From the NCBI RefSeq assembly GCF_009707365.1, contig NZ_CP046122.1:558001-622000 (forward strand): a DNA stretch of 64,000 nucleotides. Direction: 5' to 3'. The DNA comes from Microlunatus sp. Gsoil 973 (GTDB taxonomy: Bacteria > Actinomycetota > Actinomycetes > Propionibacteriales > Propionibacteriaceae). Made by a program: the position numbers and the translations under genes. Positions 23,075 through 33,769 of the stretch are shown piece after piece. Position 1 is the stretch's first letter, and each line of letters begins with the position of its first letter. The notes beneath the pieces are model-generated. The model was not told where the DNA came from and made no database searches. It was given only the letters and a program-made list of their open reading frames with translations.

Positions 23075-24255
23075 CCTCGGTCACTCTGGTCGATGATCAT
23101 GGCCGGTTGACGTCGTACCCGATCGGCGCAGCCGAGCCGCTGGCCCGGCCGACCGGGCCGCTGCGGTCCCGGACGGCCTTCGCCGCTGCACACGTGGTGC
23201 CGCTGGCCTGGGCGGACAACGTGCCCGGAGCGCCGGCGGAGATCGACTGGGACGCCACCCTCGGCTTCCGCCGCCACCTGTGGTCCTGGGGGCTCGGGGT
23301 CGCGGACGCGATGGACACCGCGCAGCGGAACATGGGTCTCGACGCGGCGGCCACCCGGGAGTTGATCAAGCGGAGCACCGCCGAGGCCAGGGGGGAATCG
23401 GGTTTCGCTGATCTTTCCGACGCCATCGTCGTCGGGGTGAACACCGATCACATCGACGAGCCGGTGATCGGCCTCGATCGGGTCGTCGCGGGATATCTCG
23501 AGCAGCTCGCGTTCGCGCAGGACCAGGGAGCCGGCGTCGTACTGATGGCCAGCCGTCATCTGGCCCGCGCGGCGCGGTCGGCCGAGGACTACCTGACCGT
23601 CTACGACCGCGTGCTTGCTGAGGCAGAGCGTCCGGTGATCCTGCACTGGCTCGGTGAGGCGTTCGATCCGCAACTTGCCGGCTACTTCGGTAGTCCGGAC
23701 ACCGGTGACGCGAGCAAGATCGTCCTGGAGATCATCGGTGATCATGTCGCGCGGGTGCGCGGGATCAAGATGAGTCTGCTGGACGCCGAGGCGGAGATCA
23801 GCCTGCGCGCCGAACTGCCGGACGGGGTACGGCTGTTCACCGGCGACGACTACAACTACTCGCGACTGATCGAAGGTGACGGCCGGCGGTATTCCGACGC
23901 TCTGCTCGGCGCCTTCGCCGCGGTCGCCCCGAACGCCTCTGCCGCGATCCAGGCGCTGGACGCGGATGATCATGATCGGTATCACGCACTGCTCGATCCG
24001 ACCGAGGCCCTGGCCCGGCAGATCTTCGCTACGCCGACGTTCTACTACAAGACCGGAGTGGCGTTCCTCTCCTGGCTGAACGGGCACCAGCCGAGTCCGG
24101 CGATGGTCGGCGGCCTGCACAGTGCCCGCAGCCTGCCGCATCTGTCGGAGATCGTCCGGTTGGCGATCGATGCCAATGCGCTGACCGCCCCCGATCTTGC
24201 CGCGGCGCGATGGCATGGATTCCTTGCCCTGAACGGAATCGAGGCCGTGTCGTGA
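23071..24255 (+). CDS. DUF993/dihydrodipicolinate synthase family protein
   Basis: A 394-residue protein of the DUF993 group, distantly related to DHDPS/NAL aldolases. It carries AFAAAHVVPLAWADN, WSWGLGVADAMDTAQRNMGL, VILHWLGEAFDP and VRGIKMSLLD, whose Lys is a plausible Schiff-base residue. The group is usually found in actinobacterial clusters with Gfo/Idh dehydrogenases and TIM-barrel isomerases, as here, and probably acts on a keto sugar acid. ATGA overlap with both neighbours indicates coupled translation. Confidence 0.8.
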   Translation: MTSVTLVDDHGRLTSYPIGAAEPLARPTGPLRSRTAFAAAHVVPLAWADNVPGAPAEIDWDATLGFRRHLWSWGLGVADAMDTAQRNMGLDAAATRELIKRSTAEARGESGFADLSDAIVVGVNTDHIDEPVIGLDRVVAGYLEQLAFAQDQGAGVVLMASRHLARAARSAEDYLTVYDRVLAEAERPVILHWLGEAFDPQLAGYFGSPDTGDASKIVLEIIGDHVARVRGIKMSLLDAEAEISLRAELPDGVRLFTGDDYNYSRLIEGDGRRYSDALLGAFAAVAPNASAAIQALDADDHDRYHALLDPTEALARQIFATPTFYYKTGVAFLSWLNGHQPSPAMVGGLHSARSLPHLSEIVRLAIDANALTAPDLAAARWHGFLALNGIEAVS

Positions 24256-25100
24256 GCGCGACAACCAGTCACGGGCGACTCTCGCTGAACCAGGCGACGA
24301 TCAAGTACGCGACCCTGTCCGAAGCCCTGCAGGTCGCCGTCGACGCCGGCTACCGCAGCATCGGATTGTGGCGGGAGCCGGTCCAGGAGGTCGGCCTGGA
24401 CAGGGCCGTCGACCTGGTCGCAGACTCCGGACTCCGGGTCTCCAGCCTGTGCCGCGGCGGCTTCTTCACGGTCGCGTCGGGGCCCGAACGGGACAGGGCT
24501 CTGGACGACAACCGACGTGCGCTGGAGGAGGCGCACCGGCTCGGCACCGAGATCCTGGTGCTGGTCTGCGGGGGACTCCCGGCGGGTGACCGAGATCTTG
24601 TCGGCGCCCGGGAGCGGGTCAGGGACGCGATCGGCGCATTGGCCGGTGACGCCGCCGATGCCGGGGTCACCCTGGCGCTGGAACCCCTGCATCCGATGTA
24701 TGCCGCGGACCGGGCGGTGATCAACACGCTTGGCCAGGCTCTGGACATCGCCGAGCAGTTCCCGGCGGAGGCGGTCGGCGTCGTCGTCGACACCTTCCAC
24801 CTGTGGTGGGATCCGGAGGTGATCGCCCAGATCGCCCGCGCCGGCCGGGAACGGATCACGAGCTATCAGGTCTGCGACTGGATCACCCCGCTGCCGGCGG
24901 ACAATCTGCTGGCCCGCGGCGTTCCGGGAGACGGGCACATCGACTTCGGGCCGATCACCGCCGCGGTCGCCGCCACCGGCTACGCCGGCGATGTGGAGTG
25001 CGAGATCTTCAACGCAGATGTCTGGGACCGCCCCTTCGCCGAGGTCGCGGCCCTGGTCGCCGACCGCTACCACGCCCTCATCGAACCCCACCTCCCCTGA
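24252..25100 (+). CDS. Sugar phosphate isomerase/epimerase (xylose isomerase-like TIM barrel)
   Basis: The protein is 282 residues from GTG 24252, which overlaps the preceding stop. It has the AP-endonuclease-2/xylose-isomerase-like fold: AVDAGYRSIGLWREP, LALEPLHPMYAADRAVI (metal-binding Glu), VGVVVDTFHLWWDPE (Asp, His), GDGHIDFGPI and VECEIFNADVW. These are the positions of a metal-dependent sugar isomerase or epimerase. It ends the LacI-controlled three-gene set. A copy of the 45-nt repeat begins at the base right after the stop codon. Confidence 0.88.
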   Translation: MSATTSHGRLSLNQATIKYATLSEALQVAVDAGYRSIGLWREPVQEVGLDRAVDLVADSGLRVSSLCRGGFFTVASGPERDRALDDNRRALEEAHRLGTEILVLVCGGLPAGDRDLVGARERVRDAIGALAGDAADAGVTLALEPLHPMYAADRAVINTLGQALDIAEQFPAEAVGVVVDTFHLWWDPEVIAQIARAGRERITSYQVCDWITPLPADNLLARGVPGDGHIDFGPITAAVAATGYAGDVECEIFNADVWDRPFAEVAALVADRYHALIEPHLP

Positions 25101-25147
25101 CGCCGAGGGGTCACTAAATCCCCTCATATTGGCGGTGTGTCGCGACC
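25101..25147 (+). repeat. 3'-end element copy a (CGCCGAGGGGTCA...GCGGTGTGTCGCGACC)
   Basis: The 47-nt element starts at the first base after the isomerase stop. It contains the 5' core CGCCGAGGGGTCA, a small hairpin (GAGGGG-TCACTAAAT-CCCTC), and the 3' core GCGGTGTGTCGCGACC. Copies are also at 25154, 31079, 31161 (minus), 32622 (minus) and 32570 (minus). Confidence 0.85.
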
Positions 25148-25153
25148 CGCTCA

Positions 25154-25197
25154 TGCCGAGGGGTCACAAAATCCCCAATCCCTGCGGTGTCGCGACC
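25154..25197 (+). repeat. 3'-end element copy b
   Basis: A direct second copy six bases after copy a, starting TGCCGAGGGGTCACAAAATC and ending TGCGGTGTCGCGACC. The linker CGCTCA-TGCCGAGGGG between copies a and b recurs as CCCTCA-TGCCGAGGGG in the pair at 32.6 kb, so the dimer itself is conserved. Confidence 0.85.
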
Positions 25198-25495
25198 GGG
25201 GCCGCGGCCGCAACGATTGCCTCGACCGAATTGCACCAAATTTCAATCAAATCGTACGAATTCCGTACGCGAACGCCGGACAGACGCCGGGCCCAACTTC
25301 TCAGCATCCAACGCTTAAGCGGTTCGACACCAGGCGAAACGCAGATGTTCCAGCAAACCCCGATCCTTGCGTCCCGAATTCGAACCATTTTCCCGTAGGA
25401 GCTTGACCGGGACATAGTTCAGCCGCTTGATTAATCCCCAAGCACCACCAGTGGTTGTGTGACAACGACGTACCGAGCGCTGGAAGGAGATGGCT
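25198..25495. promoter_or_regulatory. Leader and probable promoter region of the ABC importer operon
   Basis: After the repeats comes an AT-richer stretch (25226-25265) with CGTACGAATTCCGTACG, in which a self-complementary CGTACG occurs twice. At 25310-25324 stands AACGCTTAAGCGGTT, with a perfect 10-bp core CGCTTAAGCG, a possible operator. The change in base composition suggests a promoter here, so the transporter may be transcribed separately from the catabolic genes. No coding sequence is supported. Confidence 0.4.
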
Positions 25496-27352
25496 ATGCC
25501 CATTTCTCGACGTCCCCCTCAACGCCATGTCGAAGACGTCGCCGACGTCCTGCGATATCTGAGTCGGCGCAATCTGCTCGCCGGCGGAGCCGCGGTCGCG
25601 GCCGGCGGCTTGCTGAGTGCCTGTTCCGGAGGAGGTGGCGGTTCCTACAGTGACCGCAACTCCGGAAACAACGGAGGCAAGAAGAACACGATGCCGCTCG
25701 AGGTCGGGAAGGCGAACATCCCGACTCCGCGCGAGCAGACCTTGATCGTCGCGCAGACCGACTTCACGGTGTTCAACAACTGGAACTCCATGGTGCCCAA
25801 TGGCGCACCGGGCGCGTCCGGGTTCGACATCTTCGTCAAGGAGTACATGTTCTATCTAAACCTGGCGACTGGCGAGCTGATGCCGTGGTTGTGCACCGAC
25901 TACAAGTACAACGACGACTTCACCGAACTGACCTTCCACTTCGACCCGAACGCCAAGTGGAACGACGGCCAGGCGCTGACCTCGGCCGACTTCAAGTTCA
26001 CCGTCGATCTGTTGCGGAGCAGGCAGGATCTGCTCGGCGGCGGCGGAGACCTGACCGAGTTCACCAAGTCGGTCGACACACCGGATCCGCAGACCGCGGT
26101 GATCACCATGACCAAACCGAACCCGCGGTTCCACTACGGGTTCATCGCGGTGATAGTCGGCGGCTTCGACATCCGCCCCAAGCACGTCTGGGAGGGCAAG
26201 GATCCGCTGAAGTTCCGGGACAACCCGCCGGTGCGCAGCGGACCGTACGTCCTGGACAAGGCCATCCAGAGCCAGAAGATGTTTGTCTGGAAGAAGAATC
26301 CCGACTACTGGAACAAGGCCAAGCTCGACCCCAAGCCTCAGTACGTGGTCTACATCAGCACCGCGAAACAGGCCGACTCCGCGTCTCTGGCCTTCGAACG
26401 CGCACAGGTCGACGTCGGTTCGATCGACGAGGAACACGCGAAAGCGCTGCGTGCCAAGGGCTATCCGGCGCTGGTCACCACCCAGTTCCACGACCCGTGC
26501 CCGCGGGCCTTCTGGCTGAACAACGACCCCTCCCGCGGCATCATCGCCGAGCCGAAGATGCACTGGGTGATCAACTACCTGATCGACCGGGTCAAGGACG
26601 GTACGAACGTCTGGCCGGTCAAGGTGCCGCCGGCCCACTATCCCTGGGCCGACTATCCCAGCAACAAGAAGTGGGAGGACCAGGAGGTCGCGGACAAGTA
26701 CCCGTTCACCTACGACCCGGCCAAGGCCGAGGACCTGCTGGACGAGATCGCCCCGAAGGGCAGCAACGGCAAGCGGATGTACAAGGGCAAGCCGGCCTCC
26801 ATCGAGATCATCACGCCGGTCGCCGTCGACGGAGCCGAGTACGTGATGGCCAAGCTGGTCAGGGACCAACTGGTCAAGCTGGGCGTCGATGCGACCATCC
26901 GCAGTCTCAGCGGCTCGGTACACGACGACAAGTGGCAGCGCGGCGAGTTCGACATCAGCTCCCAGTGGGTGTGCGACGTCTCCTGGGATCCCGAGCAGCT
27001 GTACCGCAACCTGCAGAGCGATCGGGCGGTGCCGGTGGGCAAGAACGCGGTCGGCCGGAACAACGTGCGGTTGCGCGACAAGCGGCTGGATGATCTGTCC
27101 AAGCAGTTGGCCAACATGGATCCCACGTCCAACGAGGCCAAGCAGTTGCTGGCCAAGGCACTGGAGATCTACTACGAGGACCTGCCGGTGATCCCGATCA
27201 TCCAGACCGGTTACCCGCAGTACTTCAACACGGCGTTCTGGACCGGTTGGCCGACCGACAACAACCTCTACCAGGTGCCGTTGAACTGGTGGGGCCATTT
27301 CATGTTCGTCATCGGCAAGATCCAGCCGAGCGGCCGGAAAGCGCCGGCATGA
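25496..27352 (+). CDS. ABC importer substrate-binding lipoprotein (SBP family 5)
   Basis: A 618-residue extracellular binding protein of the oligopeptide/oligosaccharide (OppA/DppA-like) family. ATG 25496 is preferred because GGAAGGAG ends about six bases upstream; the earlier ATG 25490 touches it. Twin arginines (SRRNLLAGGA, 23-32) and a lipobox LLSAC with C43 mark it as a Tat-exported lipoprotein. The mature part opens with a Gly/Ser/Asn-rich linker. Family 5 motifs include FHFDPNAKWNDGQALTSADF and VRSGPYVLDKA. It captures a peptide or, given its neighbours, an oligosaccharide. Confidence 0.92.
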   Translation: MPISRRPPQRHVEDVADVLRYLSRRNLLAGGAAVAAGGLLSACSGGGGGSYSDRNSGNNGGKKNTMPLEVGKANIPTPREQTLIVAQTDFTVFNNWNSMVPNGAPGASGFDIFVKEYMFYLNLATGELMPWLCTDYKYNDDFTELTFHFDPNAKWNDGQALTSADFKFTVDLLRSRQDLLGGGGDLTEFTKSVDTPDPQTAVITMTKPNPRFHYGFIAVIVGGFDIRPKHVWEGKDPLKFRDNPPVRSGPYVLDKAIQSQKMFVWKKNPDYWNKAKLDPKPQYVVYISTAKQADSASLAFERAQVDVGSIDEEHAKALRAKGYPALVTTQFHDPCPRAFWLNNDPSRGIIAEPKMHWVINYLIDRVKDGTNVWPVKVPPAHYPWADYPSNKKWEDQEVADKYPFTYDPAKAEDLLDEIAPKGSNGKRMYKGKPASIEIITPVAVDGAEYVMAKLVRDQLVKLGVDATIRSLSGSVHDDKWQRGEFDISSQWVCDVSWDPEQLYRNLQSDRAVPVGKNAVGRNNVRLRDKRLDDLSKQLANMDPTSNEAKQLLAKALEIYYEDLPVIPIIQTGYPQYFNTAFWTGWPTDNNLYQVPLNWWGHFMFVIGKIQPSGRKAPA

Positions 27353-28455
27353 CCTCGATGGCGACGACCCGGGCGGACGATCGCAAGTCCCCACCCGATC
27401 CGGTGCCGGCCGCCCGGGCGGTCGGTGTCCGGTCGGTCCTCGCCCGGCATCCACTCGTTGCGTACGCGGTCCGCCGCTTCGGGCTGTACCTGATCGAGAT
27501 GTGGGGCGCGTTGACCATCGCGTTCTTCTTCTTCCGGTTGATCCCGGGCGATCCGATCCAGACCTTCATCCAGACCCTCCAGCAGAACTACGTCTACAAC
27601 GTGCAGGCCAGCGCGGAGGTGATCGCCCGGTACCAGCACGAGTTCGGCCTGGACGGCAACATCTTCGTGCAGTATCTGCACCACATGAAGAAGTTGATCA
27701 TCGATCATGACTTCGGTCCGTCCTTGATCAACTATCCGACCCCGGCGCAGGACGTGATCATGCAGTCGCTGCCCTGGACGATCGGACTGTTGGGCATCTC
27801 GGCGGTGATCGCCTGGGTTGCCGGGTTGGGTGCCGGGGCGGTGGCGGGCTGGCGCCGCGGCAAGCCGGGTGCCGAGGTCGCCACCAACCTGGCGATCATG
27901 CTCGGGCACGTGCCGTTCTACTTCGTGGCGCTGATCCTGGTCTACGTCTTCGCCTATTCGCTGGGCTGGTTGCCGGCGCGGTCGGCGTACGACTCCAACA
28001 TCCCGGTGGCGTTCTCGCCGCAATTCATCGGCAGTGTGCTGCAGCACGGGATCCTGCCGGCGGCGTCGATCGTGATCATCGGCATCTTCAACTGGTTGCT
28101 GTCGACGCGAATGCTGATGATCCCGGTGCTCGGTGAGGACTACCTGCTCTATGCCGAGGCCAAGGGGCTTCGTCCCGGCGACATCCTGACCCGGTACGCC
28201 CTCCGGAACTGTTACCTGCCGCAGGTGACGGCCTTCGGCCTGTCGTTGGGCTTCATCTTCAACGGCAACGTGTTGGTCGAACAGCTGTTCAACTATCCCG
28301 GACTGGGCAGCACGCTGGTCACGGCGATCCAGCAGTTGGACTTCAACACGATCCTGGCGGTCACCGACATGGCGATCATCTCGGTGCTGACCATCAACCT
28401 GATCCTGGACCTGGTGCTGCCGTTCCTGGATCCGCGCGTGAAGTACTGGGGGTGA
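27349..28455 (+). CDS. ABC importer permease, DppB type
   Basis: A 368-residue inner-membrane permease. About six TM helices follow a ~40-residue polar N-terminus. FFFRLIPGDPIQTF is the start signature of the DppB/OppB group, and EAKGLRPGDILTRYALRN is the cytoplasmic EAA loop contacting the ATPase. The end reads LPFLDPRVKYWG. ATG 27349 overlaps the stop of the binding-protein gene. It pairs with the DppC-type permease that follows. Confidence 0.93.
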   Translation: MTSMATTRADDRKSPPDPVPAARAVGVRSVLARHPLVAYAVRRFGLYLIEMWGALTIAFFFFRLIPGDPIQTFIQTLQQNYVYNVQASAEVIARYQHEFGLDGNIFVQYLHHMKKLIIDHDFGPSLINYPTPAQDVIMQSLPWTIGLLGISAVIAWVAGLGAGAVAGWRRGKPGAEVATNLAIMLGHVPFYFVALILVYVFAYSLGWLPARSAYDSNIPVAFSPQFIGSVLQHGILPAASIVIIGIFNWLLSTRMLMIPVLGEDYLLYAEAKGLRPGDILTRYALRNCYLPQVTAFGLSLGFIFNGNVLVEQLFNYPGLGSTLVTAIQQLDFNTILAVTDMAIISVLTINLILDLVLPFLDPRVKYWG

Positions 28456-28462
28456 CGGACTG

Positions 28463-29362
28463 ATGTCGATCATGACTTCGACGGCAACGATCGGCCGGGT
28501 GCTCAGGGCGCCGGTCGGCGTCGTCCGCAGCAGTCCGAAGTTGGCCGGCGGGCTGATCGTCCTGGCCCTGCTGGTGTTGGCATCGTTGAGCAGTCCGCTG
28601 GTCAGTAGGGCAATCGGACACGGGTCCGACCCGGTCGCGGTGGCTGCCTACGAACGCTGGCTGGTGCCGTCTCCGGCACATCCGCTCGGCACCGATCAAT
28701 TGGGCCGGGACGTCCTGTCGATGATCATCGGATCGATGTCGACCTCGCTGCAGATCGGCGCAATCGCGGGCGTGATCTCGACTGCGATCGGTGTGGTGGT
28801 GGCGTTCCTGGCCGGCTATCTCGGCGGCTGGGTCGACGCCGTACTGTCGACGTTCACCGGAATCCTGCTGGTGATTCCCACGTTCCCGCTGCTGATCGCG
28901 CTGTCGGCGTACGCGAAGGAGGTGACCCTCTTCCAGGTCGGCCTGATGTTGTCGATCTTCAGTTGGCCGTTCGCTGCCAAGATCATCAGATCGCAGGTGC
29001 TCAGCCTGCGCACCAGGCCGTACGTCGAACTGGCCAAGGTGAGCAAGGCCGGGGCGATGGAGGTGATCGTCACCGAGCTGCTGCCCAATCTTGCGCCGTT
29101 CATCGGTGTCGGTTTTGCATCGGCTGCACTCGGCGCGATCTTCGGCCTGGTCGGTCTCGAGGTCATCGGCCTCGGGCCGAGCGGCGTGATCGATCTGGGT
29201 CACATCATCTATTCGGCGATCTCCACCGGTGCGTTGACGCTGGGCGCGTGGCCGATGTTCGTGGTACCGATCGGCCTGCTGACGTTGCTGTTCGCGGCGT
29301 TGAACATGGTCAACATCGGACTGGAGGAGGTCTACAACCCGAGACTGAGGAGTGAGCGGTGA
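28463..29362 (+). CDS. ABC importer permease, DppC type
   Basis: A 299-residue second permease. The N-terminal signature HPLGTDQLGRDVLS is that of DppC/OppC. Five or six TM helices surround the EAA-like loop VELAKVSKAGAMEVIVTELLPN. The C-terminus ENMVNIGLEEVYNPRL form (here ALNMVNIGLEEVYNPRLRS) matches the family. The stop overlaps the start of the first ATPase gene by four bases. Together with the DppB-type subunit it forms the transmembrane channel. Confidence 0.93.
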   Translation: MSIMTSTATIGRVLRAPVGVVRSSPKLAGGLIVLALLVLASLSSPLVSRAIGHGSDPVAVAAYERWLVPSPAHPLGTDQLGRDVLSMIIGSMSTSLQIGAIAGVISTAIGVVVAFLAGYLGGWVDAVLSTFTGILLVIPTFPLLIALSAYAKEVTLFQVGLMLSIFSWPFAAKIIRSQVLSLRTRPYVELAKVSKAGAMEVIVTELLPNLAPFIGVGFASAALGAIFGLVGLEVIGLGPSGVIDLGHIIYSAISTGALTLGAWPMFVVPIGLLTLLFAALNMVNIGLEEVYNPRLRSER

Positions 29363-30192
29363 CGGATCGAGCGTCGGAGCCGGACGACATTCTGCAGATC
29401 TCCGATCTGACCGTCAGGTACAGCAGCCGGCCGGGTACGCCGTCGGCTGTCGACGGTGTTGATCTTGCCGTACGCCGGGGCGAGATCCTCGGCGTGGCGG
29501 GGGAGTCCGGGAGTGGCAAGAGCACCTTGGCTGTTGCGCTGCTGCGGTTGCTCAAGCGGCCCGGCAGAGTGACCGCCGGATCGATCCTCTTCCGTCCCCG
29601 GGACAGAAGCGAAGTTGATCTTCTCCGGGTGGGGGGACAAGGCGCTGCGCGGGCTACGCTGGCGCAATCTGGCCTATCTGCCGCAAGGGTCGATGAACTC
29701 ACTCAACCCGGTGGCCAGGATCCGTGACCAGTTCGCCGATGTCATTGTCGAACACGCCCCGCATCGTCGGGGGAGTTGGGCGAACTCGTACCGCGGCTGT
29801 TGGGCACGGTGGGGCTGCCGGCCCGGGTGGCGAACATGTATCCGCACGAGCTGTCCGGCGGGATGCGACAGCGGGTGTTGATGGCGATCTGCATCGCGCT
29901 GGAGCCGGACCTGATCGTCGCCGACGAGCCGACCACCGCGCTCGACGTGACGATCCAGCGGGTGATCCTGCAGACGCTGTCGGATCTGCGCAACGACTTC
30001 GGCGTGACATTGATCCTGATCTCCCACGACATGGGCGTACACGCCCAGCTCGCTGATCGGGTCGCTGTGATGTACGAGGGCAGGATCGTCGAGGTCGGCG
30101 ACACTCGGCAGATCTTCAAGGATCCGCAGGATCCTTACACAACGGCCTTGATCGACTCCATTCCGACGATCGAGGAACGGAGGGCATCGTGA
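29359..30192 (+). CDS. ABC importer ATPase, DppD type, with two compensating frameshifts
   Basis: The first part reads from GTG 29359 with Walker A GESGSGKST. The middle (about 29638-29769) is in the +1 frame and contains LAYLPQGSMNSLNPV (Q-loop). The last part returns to the first frame, with ABC signature ELSGGMRQR, Walker B LIVADEPTTALD and the switch His in ISHDMG. A G6 run at 29632-29637 with one G too many and a G5 run at 29769-29773 with one too few would restore a single ~277-residue protein. As written, translation stops at 29727. Sequencing error is likely, but a real lesion would disable import. Confidence 0.85.
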
Positions 30193-31070
30193 CTACGGAG
30201 TCGGCGGGTCATCGGATCGACCTGGACAACGTGAGCCAGGAGTTCCATGCCCGGGGCACCACGAGCGGCTTCATGACCGCCGTGGACGGGGTGAGCTTCA
30301 CACTGACCTCGGAGGCGGCCCAGGTGGTCAGCCTGGTCGGCCAGAGCGGCAGCGGGAAGAGCACCATCGCCCGGATCATCCTCGGGCTGCAGAAACCGAG
30401 TGCCGGCGAGGTCACCTATGACGGCAAGGACATCTACCGGCTGTCCCGGAGCGGCTCCAACGACTATCGACGACAGGTCCAGCCGGTGTTCCAGGATCCG
30501 TACGCGATCTTCAACCCGGTCTACCGGGTCGATCGGGTGCTCTGGAAGGCCGCGCACAAGTTCGGTGTGGCGAACAGCCGGGCGGCGGCCGAGGAACGGA
30601 TCGAGGAGTCGCTGACAGCCGTACGGTTGGACCCGAAACAGGTGCTGGGTCGGTATCCGCATCAGCTGTCCGGCGGGCAGCGGCAACGGATCATGCTGGC
30701 CCGGGTGCATCTGCTCCGGCCGGCGTTCATCATCGCCGACGAGCCGGTGTCGATGCTGGACGCCCAGGTGCGCAAGTCGTTCCTGGACATCCTGCTCGAC
30801 TTCGGTGAGAAGTACCGGATGACCACGTTGTTCATCACCCATGACCTGTCCACCGTGTCCTATCTGGGCGGCGAGATGATGGTGATCACCAACGGCAAGG
30901 TCGTCGAGAGTGGTTCGGTGCATACGGTGATGGCCGAGCCGTCGCATCCCTACACCCGACTGCTGTTGGACTCGGTTCCCCGACCTGATCCCGACCAGCG
31001 CTGGACCGACCGGATCACCGTCGACGACAAGGGCGACCAGATCCTGATCGACCAGCCCCTCATCGACTAG
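30189..31070 (+). CDS. ABC importer ATPase, DppF type
   Basis: A 293-residue nucleotide-binding subunit with Walker A GQSGSGKST, Q-loop PVFQDPYAIFNP, signature QLSGGQRQR, Walker B FIIADEPVSMLD and H-loop FITHDLS. The C-terminal SHPYTRLLLDSVP is typical of DppF/OppF subunits. ATGA-type overlap with the upstream ATPase. It drives import together with the DppD-type subunit. A copy of the 45-nt element begins 8 bp after its stop. Confidence 0.93.
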   Translation: MTTESAGHRIDLDNVSQEFHARGTTSGFMTAVDGVSFTLTSEAAQVVSLVGQSGSGKSTIARIILGLQKPSAGEVTYDGKDIYRLSRSGSNDYRRQVQPVFQDPYAIFNPVYRVDRVLWKAAHKFGVANSRAAAEERIEESLTAVRLDPKQVLGRYPHQLSGGQRQRIMLARVHLLRPAFIIADEPVSMLDAQVRKSFLDILLDFGEKYRMTTLFITHDLSTVSYLGGEMMVITNGKVVESGSVHTVMAEPSHPYTRLLLDSVPRPDPDQRWTDRITVDDKGDQILIDQPLID

Positions 31071-31078
31071 CCCTGACT

Positions 31079-31119
31079 CGCCGAGGGGTCAGATATTCCC
31101 TGATATTCGCGGTGTGTCG
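31079..31119 (+). repeat. 3'-end element copy c
   Basis: CGCCGAGGGGTCAGATATTC at the 5' end and GCGGTGTGTCG at the 3' end, in sense orientation 8 bp after the DppF-type gene stop. It abuts an inverted copy (c'), together making a large palindrome between two convergent genes. Confidence 0.85.
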
Positions 31120-31161
31120 TCGGCACACACCGCCGGATCCGAGAAGATCGACCCCTCGGCG
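31120..31161 (-). repeat. 3'-end element copy c' (inverted)
   Basis: Read on the minus strand it starts CGCCGAGGGGTCGATCTTC and reaches GCGGTGTGTGCCGA. It begins 7 bp after the stop of the minus-strand SRPBCC gene, so again in sense orientation to the gene just ended. With copy c it can pair as an outer 12-bp stem (CGCCGAGGGGTC) and an inner 9-bp stem (GCGGTGTGT), which could act as a bidirectional terminator. Confidence 0.8.
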
Positions 31162-31168
31162 CCGGCCG

Positions 31169-31651
31169 TCAGCCGGCCGCTGCGGCGAACCGCTGCAGGT
31201 AGAGCGGCCAGCCGTCGGCGCCGGAAACGCCTTCGCGCAGGTTCTCCCAGCCCTCACCGTGGCGATCGAGATTGCGGTGCTCGAGTTCGACGCGGGTACG
31301 GCTGGCGTCCAGGGACGTGAAGGTGACCTCGATCTCGCTGCACTGGTCGGGGTCGGTCTCGATTCGCCAATTCGGATCGATGTCCCAGCTGATCACGAAT
31401 CGATGCGGCGGCTCGAAGACCAGGACTCGCGACCAGCGGCTCTCGCTACCGTCCTCCAGCCTGTCGTACAGATGGCCGCCGACACGCGGCTCGAAGACCG
31501 ATTCGACGACCGGTGAGGCCTGTGGATTGTGATCATGTGGCTTGATCTTGTCCCACTGCTCGTGGAAGACCGCGAACGCATGATCGATCGGTACGCCGAT
31601 CTCGATCTCGTGACGGATCGCAGTGGGTGCGGCTGTCTCGGTCATGATCAT
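31169..31651 (-). CDS. SRPBCC/AHSA1-type domain protein
   Basis: A 160-residue protein with the activator-of-Hsp90-like START fold used by many ArsR-linked genes: IGVPIDHAFAVFHEQWDKI at the N-terminus, VFEPRVGGHLYDR and WSRVLVFEPPHRFVISWD in the middle, and DGWPLYLQRFAA at the end. The function is unknown; such proteins probably bind small hydrophobic ligands. Its start overlaps the ArsR-type gene stop by four bases, so the two are co-translated. ATG 31645 is an alternative start. Confidence 0.88.
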   Translation of the reverse strand: MIMTETAAPTAIRHEIEIGVPIDHAFAVFHEQWDKIKPHDHNPQASPVVESVFEPRVGGHLYDRLEDGSESRWSRVLVFEPPHRFVISWDIDPNWRIETDPDQCSEIEVTFTSLDASRTRVELEHRNLDRHGEGWENLREGVSGADGWPLYLQRFAAAAG

Positions 31652-31974
31652 TCCCCTTGTGTTGAGTGAAAAGTCTCTTCTGCGACGCGTTTGAGGTTCT
31701 GCAATGTCGTCGTCCAGAAGCGGTCCAGGTCGCGGCGGAGCGGCTCGAGGCCCGCCGGGTCGGCGTGATAGATGCGGCGGGTTCCCCGTTGATCAACAGC
31801 GACCAGCCGGGCGTCGTGCAACACCTTGAGGTGCTGGGACACCGCCGGTCGGCTGATCGGCAGGGTCTTGGCGAGCTCGGCCACCGACAGCGGTTGCTGT
31901 GCCAGGCGCTCGAGGATGTCCCGCCGTCGCGGATCTCCGAGTGCCGTCCACCCATCGACTTGGTAAGTCGTCAC
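31648..31974 (-). CDS. ArsR-family winged-helix regulator
   Basis: A 108-residue HTH protein. The recognition region is LSVAELAKTLPISRPAVSQHLKVLHDARLV, preceded by ALGDPRRRDILERLAQQP, the usual ArsR layout. It lacks the Cys-rich metal sites of true ArsR/SmtB sensors, like most members linked to SRPBCC/AHSA1 genes. GTG 31974 is the start. A palindrome just upstream is its probable operator. Confidence 0.9.
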   Translation of the reverse strand: MTTYQVDGWTALGDPRRRDILERLAQQPLSVAELAKTLPISRPAVSQHLKVLHDARLVAVDQRGTRRIYHADPAGLEPLRRDLDRFWTTTLQNLKRVAEETFHSTQGE

Positions 31975-31978
31975 GAAC

Positions 31979-31996
31979 GGTAAGTTACTGCTTACC
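31979..31996. promoter_or_regulatory. Probable ArsR-type operator
   Basis: GGTAAGTTACTGCTTACC is a perfect inverted repeat (GGTAAG, six-base spacer, CTTACC) four bases upstream of the regulator start. A further half-site GGTAAG lies at 31962-31967, inside the gene. Position and form fit autorepression of the ArsR/SRPBCC pair. Confidence 0.7.
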
Positions 31997-32035
31997 GATG
32001 GGTTGAGTCAACAGGCATTCGCAGGCGATTTCCGG

Positions 32036-32485
32036 CCGCGCACCGCTCGCGTCGACGGGGCCGTGCTCGCCGCGCACGGCAGGCTCGAACGGCGCACTGC
32101 GGCTCGACGTCGCACCACGTTCTCGGCCACGCCCGGCTTCTCCGCCGCGCACCACTTTCTCGACGGCGCACCACTTCCTCGTCGGCGCACCACTTCCTCG
32201 GCCGCGCACCTCCTGCAGCCGGTGCGGCGCCGAGGAAAGGTTGCGGGAGCGACGAACTGGTGCGGGGGCGACGAACTGGTGCGCCGTCGGGGAACTGGTG
32301 CGGGGGCGACGAACTGGTGCGGGGAAGAACTTGTGCGGGAAGTACTTGTGCGGGGGCGACCAACTGGTGCGGGGACGAACTTGTGCGCGGTCGACCACCT
32401 GGTGGGAGACCAACGGCCGGGTGCGGGAGCGACGAACTGGTGCGTGGTCGAGCAACCCGTGCGGGGGCCACCAACCCGGTGCGCG
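32036..32485. repeat. Mirrored array E3, the largest copy (~450 bp)
   Basis: The left arm (about 32036-32205) carries CGCACC-type units, the last three nearly identical (GCGCACCACTTCCTCGTCG form). The centre is at about 32205-32226, with CTGCAG in the middle. The right arm (to about 32485) has ten or more GGTGCG-type units, mostly 19 nt (GGGGCGACGAACTGGTGCG), with some 15-16-nt units that have lost the middle. Same plan as E1 and E2. The spread of unit lengths suggests slippage. It lies between the ArsR-type start and the 3'-end elements that follow the polyprenyl synthetase gene. Confidence 0.85.
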
Positions 32486-32528
32486 AACGAGCATCACCCA
32501 TGCAGGCTGGACACACCCACCCGGCACC

Positions 32529-32570
32529 GCGACACGCCGACCAGATGAGGGATTTACTGACCCCTCGGCA
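32529..32570 (-). repeat. 3'-end element copy e
   Basis: Minus-strand copy starting TGCCGAGGGGTCAGTAAATC and ending GTCGGCGTGTCGC. It follows copy d in tandem, with the same linker type as in the pair at 25.1 kb. Confidence 0.8.
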
Positions 32571-32576
32571 TGAGGG

Positions 32577-32622
32577 GGTGGCGACACGCCGCGAAGATCA
32601 GGGTTTTTGTGACCCCTCGGCG
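32577..32622 (-). repeat. 3'-end element copy d
   Basis: Minus-strand copy starting CGCCGAGGGGTCACAAAAAC and ending GCGGCGTGTCGCCACC, seven bases after the polyprenyl synthetase stop and in its sense direction. With copy e it forms a dimer homologous to copies a and b. Confidence 0.85.
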
Positions 32623-32629
32623 GGAGGGG

Positions 32630-33769
32630 CTAGAACTCGCGGCGGACGGCAGCGGAGGCGAGGGCGGTCAGGGCGGTAAGGCCGTCATCGGTGATGTCGG
32701 CGCCGGCGAGGGCGGCGAGCGCCTCGGTGTGATCGTTGTCGATCATCTTCTCCACGGCCTCGCGGGCACCCGAGGCGATGATCACCTCTTGCAGTTGACC
32801 GATGCCGTCCGCGTCGAGGTCGGGATTGCCGATCTGGGTCTCCAGCAGCTTGCGCCCGGCGGAGTCGGCGCCGGCCAGTGCCTGGGCGACAAGTACCGTG
32901 CGCTTTCCCTCCCGAAGATCATCGCCGCTGGGCTTCCCGGTGAGTTGGCTGTCACCGAAGACGCCGAGCAGATCGTCGCGATACTGGAACGCCCGGCCGA
33001 TCGGGGAACCGAACGCGCCCAATCGCTGCTGGAGTTGATCATCCGCGCCACCGAGTGCCGCACCGAACTGGAGCGGTCGACGTACGGTGTAGCGGGCCGA
33101 CTTGTACTCCACCACCCGACTGGCCTCATCCAGCGCCCGTTGCAGCCGCTTCTGATCATCGGCCATCTCGGCGGGTCGATAACTGAACCGGTCCTGGGCC
33201 TGGGACACCACGTCGAGGAACTGCCCCGCAGTGACCTCGGTACGCATCACCTCGAGCACCGGCAGGCCGCGATCGAGTACGCCGAGGCCGATACCGGAAT
33301 CGTGCAACATCTGCATCGACCAGATCAGCAGCAGATCGCCGGCCAGGATCGCGCCCGATCGCCCGAAGGCCTCAGGGTCGCCGAGGAACCCCAGGTCGCT
33401 GTGCAGCTGTTGGAACTGGCGATGCGCGGCCGGCCGGCCGCGGCGCAGATCGGAGGCGTCCATCACGTCGTCGTGGACCAGCGCGCTGGCATGCAACAGG
33501 TCGAGACTCGCAGCCGCCCGCAGCAGCCCGGCCCGCAAGTCGTCCGGCGGGCTGCCGGCTGCGGCGACGTACCCCCAGTAACAGAAGGCCGGCCGCAGCC
33601 GCTTGCCGCCGGCGGCCAGATCCCGGGCGATCCGCAGCAATGGCTCGGTCTCGGTGCCCATGCTGGCCAGAATCGCGGCCTGCCGGTCGAGGAAATCGGC
33701 GATGGCGTCCGACACGGCTCCGGTGAAGGCCGGGCTGAGCGGTGCGGAGGGATCCGGCAGGGTGGTCAC
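32630..33769 (-). CDS. Polyprenyl diphosphate synthase (trans-isoprenyl, IdsA-type)
   Basis: A 379-residue all-trans prenyltransferase. The first Asp-rich motif is LVHDDVMDASD, the second is QYRDDLLGVFGD, with upstream GGKRLRPAFCYW and the Lys of GKPSGDDLREGKRT. It condenses isopentenyl units onto an allylic diphosphate to make geranylgeranyl or longer diphosphate. Residues before the first motif are Ala/Ser-Leu rather than bulky, which usually permits C20 or longer, but I cannot fix chain length. It is the counterpart of idsA2 (Rv2173) by position. Start is GTG 33769. Confidence 0.92.
   Translation of the reverse strand: MTTLPDPSAPLSPAFTGAVSDAIADFLDRQAAILASMGTETEPLLRIARDLAAGGKRLRPAFCYWGYVAAAGSPPDDLRAGLLRAAASLDLLHASALVHDDVMDASDLRRGRPAAHRQFQQLHSDLGFLGDPEAFGRSGAILAGDLLLIWSMQMLHDSGIGLGVLDRGLPVLEVMRTEVTAGQFLDVVSQAQDRFSYRPAEMADDQKRLQRALDEASRVVEYKSARYTVRRPLQFGAALGGADDQLQQRLGAFGSPIGRAFQYRDDLLGVFGDSQLTGKPSGDDLREGKRTVLVAQALAGADSAGRKLLETQIGNPDLDADGIGQLQEVIIASGAREAVEKMIDNDHTEALAALAGADITDDGLTALTALASAAVRREF

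Follow-up and report, generated by a model that had tools for sequence, protein, structure and literature searches.

A likely mobile, REP-like repeat whose 5′ end often lies just behind stop codons in Microlunatus

A repeat of about 40 nt recurs throughout the genome of Microlunatus sp. Gsoil 973, often with its 5′ end just behind a stop codon. Six copies had been marked in a stretch of 64,000 nt (contig NZ_CP046122.1, positions 558,001 to 622,000; hereafter the window) by an initial annotation, which offered a terminator, an mRNA stabiliser or a mobile element with strict target choice as explanations. As some copies are absent at the corresponding places in a second species, some lie in frame inside genes, the distribution among genomes is patchy and an IS110-family insertion sequence (IS) uses the repeat, the mobile element is favoured among these options. 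We conclude that the repeat is probably a mobile palindromic DNA element of Actinobacteria that resembles repetitive extragenic palindromic (REP) sequences and is predicted to be copied by an enzyme acting in trans.

The 4.9-Mb genome contains 97 copies that match model R1 (E <= 4.5e-5), with two further matches at E 0.6-0.8. R1 is a sequence-only model of 40 nt, made from 55 copies: 29 from this genome, 20 from Microlunatus endophyticus CGMCC 4.7306 and six from Nocardioides ferulae SZ4R5S7. Scoring covered 150 of 3248 candidates, and a degenerate copy at window position 31160 is outside the set, so that 97 is a lower bound. Column frequencies of the 97 copies describe a unit of GCCGAGGGGTCA, about 17 variable bases and GCGGYGTGTCG, often followed by YSG. 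The first bases of the GCCGAGGGGTCA core vary (GCCG, GGCG, CGCG), CCC and AT are steadier points in the variable middle, and a C-rich, G-poor lead-in at -11 to -1 usually precedes the core. Exact GCCGAGGGGTCA occurs 61 times in the genome; with at most one mismatch there are 118 occurrences, versus 36 for the reversed control. Within the window alone, neither core exceeds chance: the 13-base core with two mismatches has 10 matches versus 7.4 ± 2.7 expected, and the 3′ core 45 versus 62. We accept the repeat as more than chance because of the two cores in combination and the genome-wide counts. The copies are mostly extragenic, with 74 of 97 overlapping no predicted gene (prediction relied on a codon-score script that misses short genes). 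Neighbours within 130 nt of each other are arranged tail to tail (10) or directly (8), and none head to head.

The coupling to stop codons is real genome-wide. It is not strict, it joins the 5′ end of the repeat to the stop, and it reaches about three times the level of chance placement. The 5′ end lies 0-15 nt after a sense stop in 34 of the 74 gap copies, whereas a gap-matched null, in which place and orientation were redrawn 4000 times inside the same gaps, gave 10.8 on average and never exceeded 19. Among the 50 gaps that leave over 100 nt free, this distance was found for the 5′ end in 16 cases and for the 3′ end in one. For 55 of the 97 copies, the range from -17 to +60 nt around the 5′ end includes the end of a coding-like sense open reading frame (ORF) or of a tRNA (38 at 0-15 nt, nine with a stop that ends inside the element, eight farther away), compared with 181 of 4000 random places and 466 of 3000 random intergenic places. 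A stop facing the 3′ end at 0-15 nt was seen in seven of the 97. Two copies lie 7-9 nt behind the genes for tRNA-Gln and tRNA-Gly. There is thus a bias of distance, whereas orientation is nearly unbiased: codirectional gaps hold 22 sense and 19 antisense copies, and divergent gaps hold seven more. Orientation with the preceding gene, as initially reported, therefore describes the six window copies and not the genome, and a strict target choice is too strong a description, given these antisense and divergent copies and some that are intragenic. Replication strand was rejected as a cause of orientation, as plus and minus copies are near balance by chromosome quarter (11/12, 14/14, 14/14 and 7/11; origin not located). 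As a separate observation, a copy adjoins the selenocysteine tRNA gene in both Microlunatus species (near genome position 1796008, L105 2500-2675, in Gsoil 973; L044 in M. endophyticus), in each case with the 3′ end of the element towards the 3′ end of the tRNA.

The same placement was found in four other genomes. The 5′ end lies 0-15 nt after a stop in 17 of 43 copies in M. endophyticus (reverse arrangement, 2), 20 of 39 in N. ferulae (12 of them at exactly 1 nt; reverse, 7), five of 13 in genome G125 (reverse, 1) and four of six in genome G177 (reverse, 1), where random placement puts 24-37 of 3000 at this distance. These counts refer to copies found by pattern or by a fixed-61-nt filter, namely 43 in stretches of M. 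endophyticus (67 model matches), 39 in N. ferulae (73), 13 in G125 (17) and six in G177 (8). Such placement could also mark a 3′-end element maintained by the host, in which both cores are recognised by a cellular protein that binds RNA or DNA, and selection keeps copies behind stops. It might act through pausing, through Rho-assisted ending after the C-rich lead-in, or through protection of mRNA ends. The hugging of stops in four genomes, the C-rich, G-poor lead-in, the copies behind two tRNA genes and the preservation of cores while middles saturate at shared places (see below) all speak for this account. Nevertheless, neither a sense stop nor the end of a tRNA lies near 42 of the 97 copies, 19 of the 41 copies in codirectional gaps are antisense and seven are in divergent gaps, in-frame copies occur inside enzymes, and the occupied places differ between species. 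We therefore consider host maintenance possible but rather unlikely.

Comparison of the two Microlunatus species bears on whether the repeat moves. The genome of M. endophyticus, which belongs to the same genus, is syntenic with that of Gsoil 973, with matches at 73-95% identity. Alignment covered 20 of the 22 comparable places, the other two being too long; 13 carry a copy in both species and seven are empty in M. endophyticus (Table 1). Two of these seven are at 0-15 nt after a stop, one is behind a tRNA and one ends a gene; at 3479804, a LysE-type gene terminates inside the element. With seven places, targeting of stops cannot be told from survival behind them. At 1964954 and 4419081 the copy is shifted by ~20-30 nt relative to the gene between species (by eye), which fits indels or separate arrivals. 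Copies also occur in frame within genes: in the first part of an ORF that encodes a ribonucleotide reductase with an ATP cone (942615), in an AMP-binding ORF (4407740) and in an E1/transketolase-type ORF (4857846). In these unrelated enzymes the element is read in one frame and gives the common peptide [AG]EGSxxPxxxRRV. Rickettsia palindromic elements are palindromic repeats inside protein genes; here, in contrast, few copies are in frame in genes and most are intergenic.

Across 12 copies shared between the species, identity amounts to 203 of 216 positions in the cores and 160 of 228 (70%) in the middles, the latter close to the 67% of random pairs within one genome; the contrast between cores and middles is partly inflated, as detection of shared copies requires intact cores. 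The comparison left out two groups whose copy numbers differed, and two diverged partners were missed by the pattern. The stability of the cores beside saturated middles suggests that the cores are still being recognised, whether by a moving enzyme or by a host protein. Homogenisation of the arms within inverted pairs was also considered and was not significant (0.71 versus 0.67, p 0.15, nine pairs).

An IS110-family element uses the repeat as its landing site. This 1.4-kb IS, with a transposase that has matches to DEDD_Tnp_IS110 and Transposase_20, is present in five near-identical copies in the genome. Each of them lies within the repeat, and the point of interruption, between ...GC and CGGCGTGTCG, is the same in all. 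The IS110 copies thus provide a ready case for reading the guide RNA of an IS against a known target.

Taken as a mobile element, the repeat would move on its own account, and the presence and absence of copies between species would not be a pattern of repeated loss. The moving enzyme, or else a host protein, would bind its cores at the DNA level, and the 40-nt form may represent half of a 61-nt hairpin found in relatives. Copies after stops may have been retained because they do least harm there, or because they mildly change mRNA 3′ ends. An effect on mRNA 3′ ends is possible, and so are effects on translation of the kind reported for Escherichia coli REPs within 15 nt of stops (work cited in PMC12306157). 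Several points weigh against this reading. The RAYT domain Y1_Tnp (PF01797) was absent from all four genomes searched (Gsoil 973, M. endophyticus, G125 and G147), and RVT_1 was absent from Gsoil 973 and N. ferulae, two of the six genomes searched. Places empty in M. endophyticus show no clean target duplication, and gain and loss are inseparable there because the empty sites lie in diverged intergenic DNA. Orientation alone is hardly biased, and the conserved cores over saturated middles look like selection for function as much as mobility.

The enzyme search also bears on how such an element could be copied. A REPIN (a REP doublet forming a hairpin) driven by RAYT in the strict sense was rejected, as Y1_Tnp is absent from the four genomes. 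Spread by reverse transcription was likewise set aside, as RVT_1 is missing in copy-rich Gsoil 973 and N. ferulae. A unit resembling a retro-element, which a reverse transcriptase inserts at the 3′ ends of RNAs with the 5′ end leading, would explain the placement behind stops and tRNAs, and RVT_1 genes are present in M. endophyticus, G125, G400 and G261. However, the two copy-rich genomes would have to have lost the enzyme and no Rfam family overlaps the repeats, which makes this origin very improbable. In the Rfam covariance search of window positions 24900-32800, three matches at E <= 5 were all below the gathering score and none lay on the repeats. A plasmid or phage vehicle was sought with one hairpin from genus g43 (see below) as query, and this query had no match in plasmids or phages. 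Scans of viral contigs yielded four stretches for the GAGGGGTCA form and none for the CCGACCCGTCA form; on reading, no stretch proved to be a clear copy (L313 has GTGTCG twice). A DNA-uptake sequence and an integron attC site were set aside by reasoning alone.

Folding separates lone copies from pairs. The 63 lone copies have a mean folding z of -0.81 versus -0.21 for control DNA, barely better than shuffles, and T-rich DNA follows four of the 97 copies. An intrinsic terminator with a stable hairpin and U tract was therefore rejected for lone copies, and a strong intrinsic terminator is unlikely for them, given the weak folding and the sense copies that lie in frame. The GAGGGG/CCCCTC-type hairpin first described in copy a of the window is no more stable than shuffled sequence (z -1.19, equalled by 25 of 200 shuffles). 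Nine tail-to-tail pairs, which span 102-118 nt, fold strongly (mean z -12.6); window copies c and c′ form one hairpin of -49.4 kcal/mol (z -7.1). The hairpins of G125 also fold strongly (mean z -6.75, n=13). These pairs and hairpins recall the U-less, I-shaped intrinsic terminators described for GC-rich actinobacteria, and U-less hairpins downstream of genes are reported to be common in mycobacteria (PMC5335608). The weak folding of lone copies, the sense copies in frame early in the ribonucleotide reductase gene and in two other enzymes, and the hairpins of N. ferulae, whose reverse strand folds no less well than the forward one (-2.53 versus -1.82), make I-shaped terminators an improbable explanation.

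The unit takes the form of a 61-nt hairpin in N. ferulae, G177 and G125. From 58 such hairpins, 57 align without gaps (alignment A2; one indel copy was omitted), and all 58 were used in the stop and folding tests. As the 61-nt filter demands parts of the motif, invariance of those parts in A2 is partly due to selection of the copies. The A2 hairpin has 11 + 5 bp and a 19-nt inner loop; 84.9% of cells pair (77.9 in shuffles), 51 cells of the arms are changed on both sides (16.5 ± 3.1 in shuffles) and the covariation score is 0.172 (0.066 in shuffles). Each of these three measures was reached by none of 500 shuffles, and slid versions score lower. Two of the five measures are within the shuffles: double-change pairs (8 versus 6.5; 98/500) and further pair types (16 versus 13.9; 71/500). 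The covariation of the arms can alternatively arise by template switching at DNA palindromes.

Model R2, made from A2, has matches in 23 of the 391 genomes searched in the order and in 19 of 394 in the class, with the own genome counted; of the 18 other genomes in the genus, 12 had no match. These group searches scored far fewer candidates per genome than R1 in Gsoil 973. Among 42 R2 matches that were read, GGCGTGTCG, a segment that the model itself includes, is exact in 28, near in four and absent in 10, some of which are plainly coding DNA or hairpins of another kind. The genus labelled g43 accounts for nine of the 19 class genomes, and all 12 g43 matches read carry GGCGTGTCG. Hairpins with CGAGCAGAC arms occur in seven g43 genomes (6-90 each, 257 in total; control 0). 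Of 75 listed g43 GAGCAGAC hairpins, 68 have a length of 58 nt and only eight have GGCGTGTCG on either strand (by eye). The g43 hairpins share R2 matches and a near-fixed length (58-62 nt) with the relatives of the repeat, whereas the arms differ; with so few of the listed hairpins carrying GGCGTGTCG, the tie between the two is tentative. The genus may correspond to mycobacteria, as a Mycobacterium tuberculosis primer given in PMC4155686 holds GCGAGCAGACGC; M. tuberculosis is among the genomes listed with REPs in PMC1525189. In g43 (G480, G701 and others), inner stems of the hairpins change completely yet remain complementary.

A broader reading would join these hairpins into one undescribed class of mobile hairpin DNA across Actinomycetia, in which the GCGGYGTGTCG segment is conserved and the arms are replaced wholesale per lineage. 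Such elements would place themselves 5′ end first at gene 3′ ends by sensing the end of transcription or translation, with an enzyme other than RAYT, and the Microlunatus form would be a 40-nt half-hairpin that is still moving. We regard this broader reading as doubtful. If gene ends are indeed targeted, this would point to an enzyme coupled to transcript or translation ends.

By the features tested, the repeat is outside both described REP classes, although REP-like in behaviour. Like the GTAG-class REPs of Proteobacteria, including bacterial interspersed mosaic elements (BIMEs) and REPINs, it is short, present in many copies, mostly intergenic, and found as singles and inverted pairs. It also shares with them its use by IS110 elements, as Proteobacterial REPs are reported IS110 targets (PMC1525189, PMC2817692), and many E. 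coli REPs are described within 15 nt of stop codons (PMC12306157). Unlike GTAG REPs, the column frequencies show no GTAG tag, no Y1/RAYT gene was found in the genomes searched, and lone copies are half-hairpins of asymmetric sequence with one end, the 5′ end, hugging stops. The CGTC-class REPs, as described in PMC3733652, are likewise palindromic, lack a dedicated transposase, often form inverted pairs and are in some cases intragenic; however, their hairpins combine stems of 8-9 bp with loops of 4-5 nt and a CGTC tag, unlike the 11 + 5 bp and 19-nt inner loop of A2. The main text of that paper does not mention Actinobacteria. Of the broad characters of REPs, many short extragenic copies and paired arrangements are present here, and a palindromic unit is true of the 61-nt relatives and the inverted pairs, whereas lone copies fold only weakly. 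In the open-access papers searched we found no report on an intergenic repeat in Microlunatus, although absence in print is not proven, and matches inspected for the repeat's sequence strings were primers only.

The repeat allows an old question, whether REPs cluster behind stops by targeting or by survival, to be addressed outside Proteobacteria. Its two ends can be distinguished and only the 5′ end hugs stops, which is useful for this purpose. It also represents a REP-like family in genomes without a detected RAYT and the sole landing site of an IS110 element, with a possible link to hairpins across actinobacterial families.

All six copies first noted in the window are present (Table 1). 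The offsets of 0, 8, 7 and 7 nt initially given from the stops agree with ours when counted to CGCC, the stop codons were verified, and Pfam supports the names given to all four host genes.

Table 1. Coordinates of repeat copies and host genes in the window, and of IS110-family copies and empty places in the genome (G000:C1).
Feature	Coordinates	Strand	Details
Copy a	25102..25142	+	41-nt unit; 1 nt after TGA (25098-25100) of TIM-barrel gene
Copy b	25155..25192	+	direct dimer partner of a; 3′ core shortened (GCGGTGTCG)
Copy c	31080..31119	+	9 nt after TAG (31068-31070) of ABC ATPase gene
Copy c′	31119..31160	-	degenerate (GCCGAGGGGTCG...GCGGTGTGTGCCGAC); inverted partner of c; follows TGA (31171-31169) of AHSA1/SRPBCC gene; outside the 97 model matches
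Copy d	32582..32621	-	8 nt after TAG (32632-32630) of polyprenyl synthetase gene
Copy e	32530..32569	-	direct dimer partner of d
Xylose-isomerase-like TIM barrel gene	24210..25100	+	5′ of a, b; PF01261, ORFs; start possibly 24252
Oligopeptide-type ABC ATPase gene	30189..31070	+	5′ of c; PF00005, PF08352 (ABC_tran + oligo_HPY)
AHSA1/SRPBCC-type gene	31169..31651	-	before c′; PF08327
Polyprenyl synthetase gene	32630..33769	-	before d, e; PF00348 (polyprenyl_synt)
IS110-family copies (genome)	2720467-2721964, 2893196-2894705, 3029875-3031511, 3609590 (right end), 4292461-4293967		near-identical
Places empty in M. endophyticus (genome)	266884, 942615, 1126532, 1698421, 2150441, 3479804, 4329045		2150441 is behind tRNA-Gln

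Two further features were observed near these copies in the window. At 29359-30192 (+), the frame of a DppD-type ATPase is apparently broken: ORF 29359-29727 stops at an in-frame TGA and ORF 29776-30192 comes next in the same frame, which may reflect a pseudogene or a sequence error. The gap between an ArsR-like gene and copies d and e is occupied by degenerate tandem repeats of ~19 nt at 32103-32483 (5.7 and 12.5 copies, 71-77% matches).

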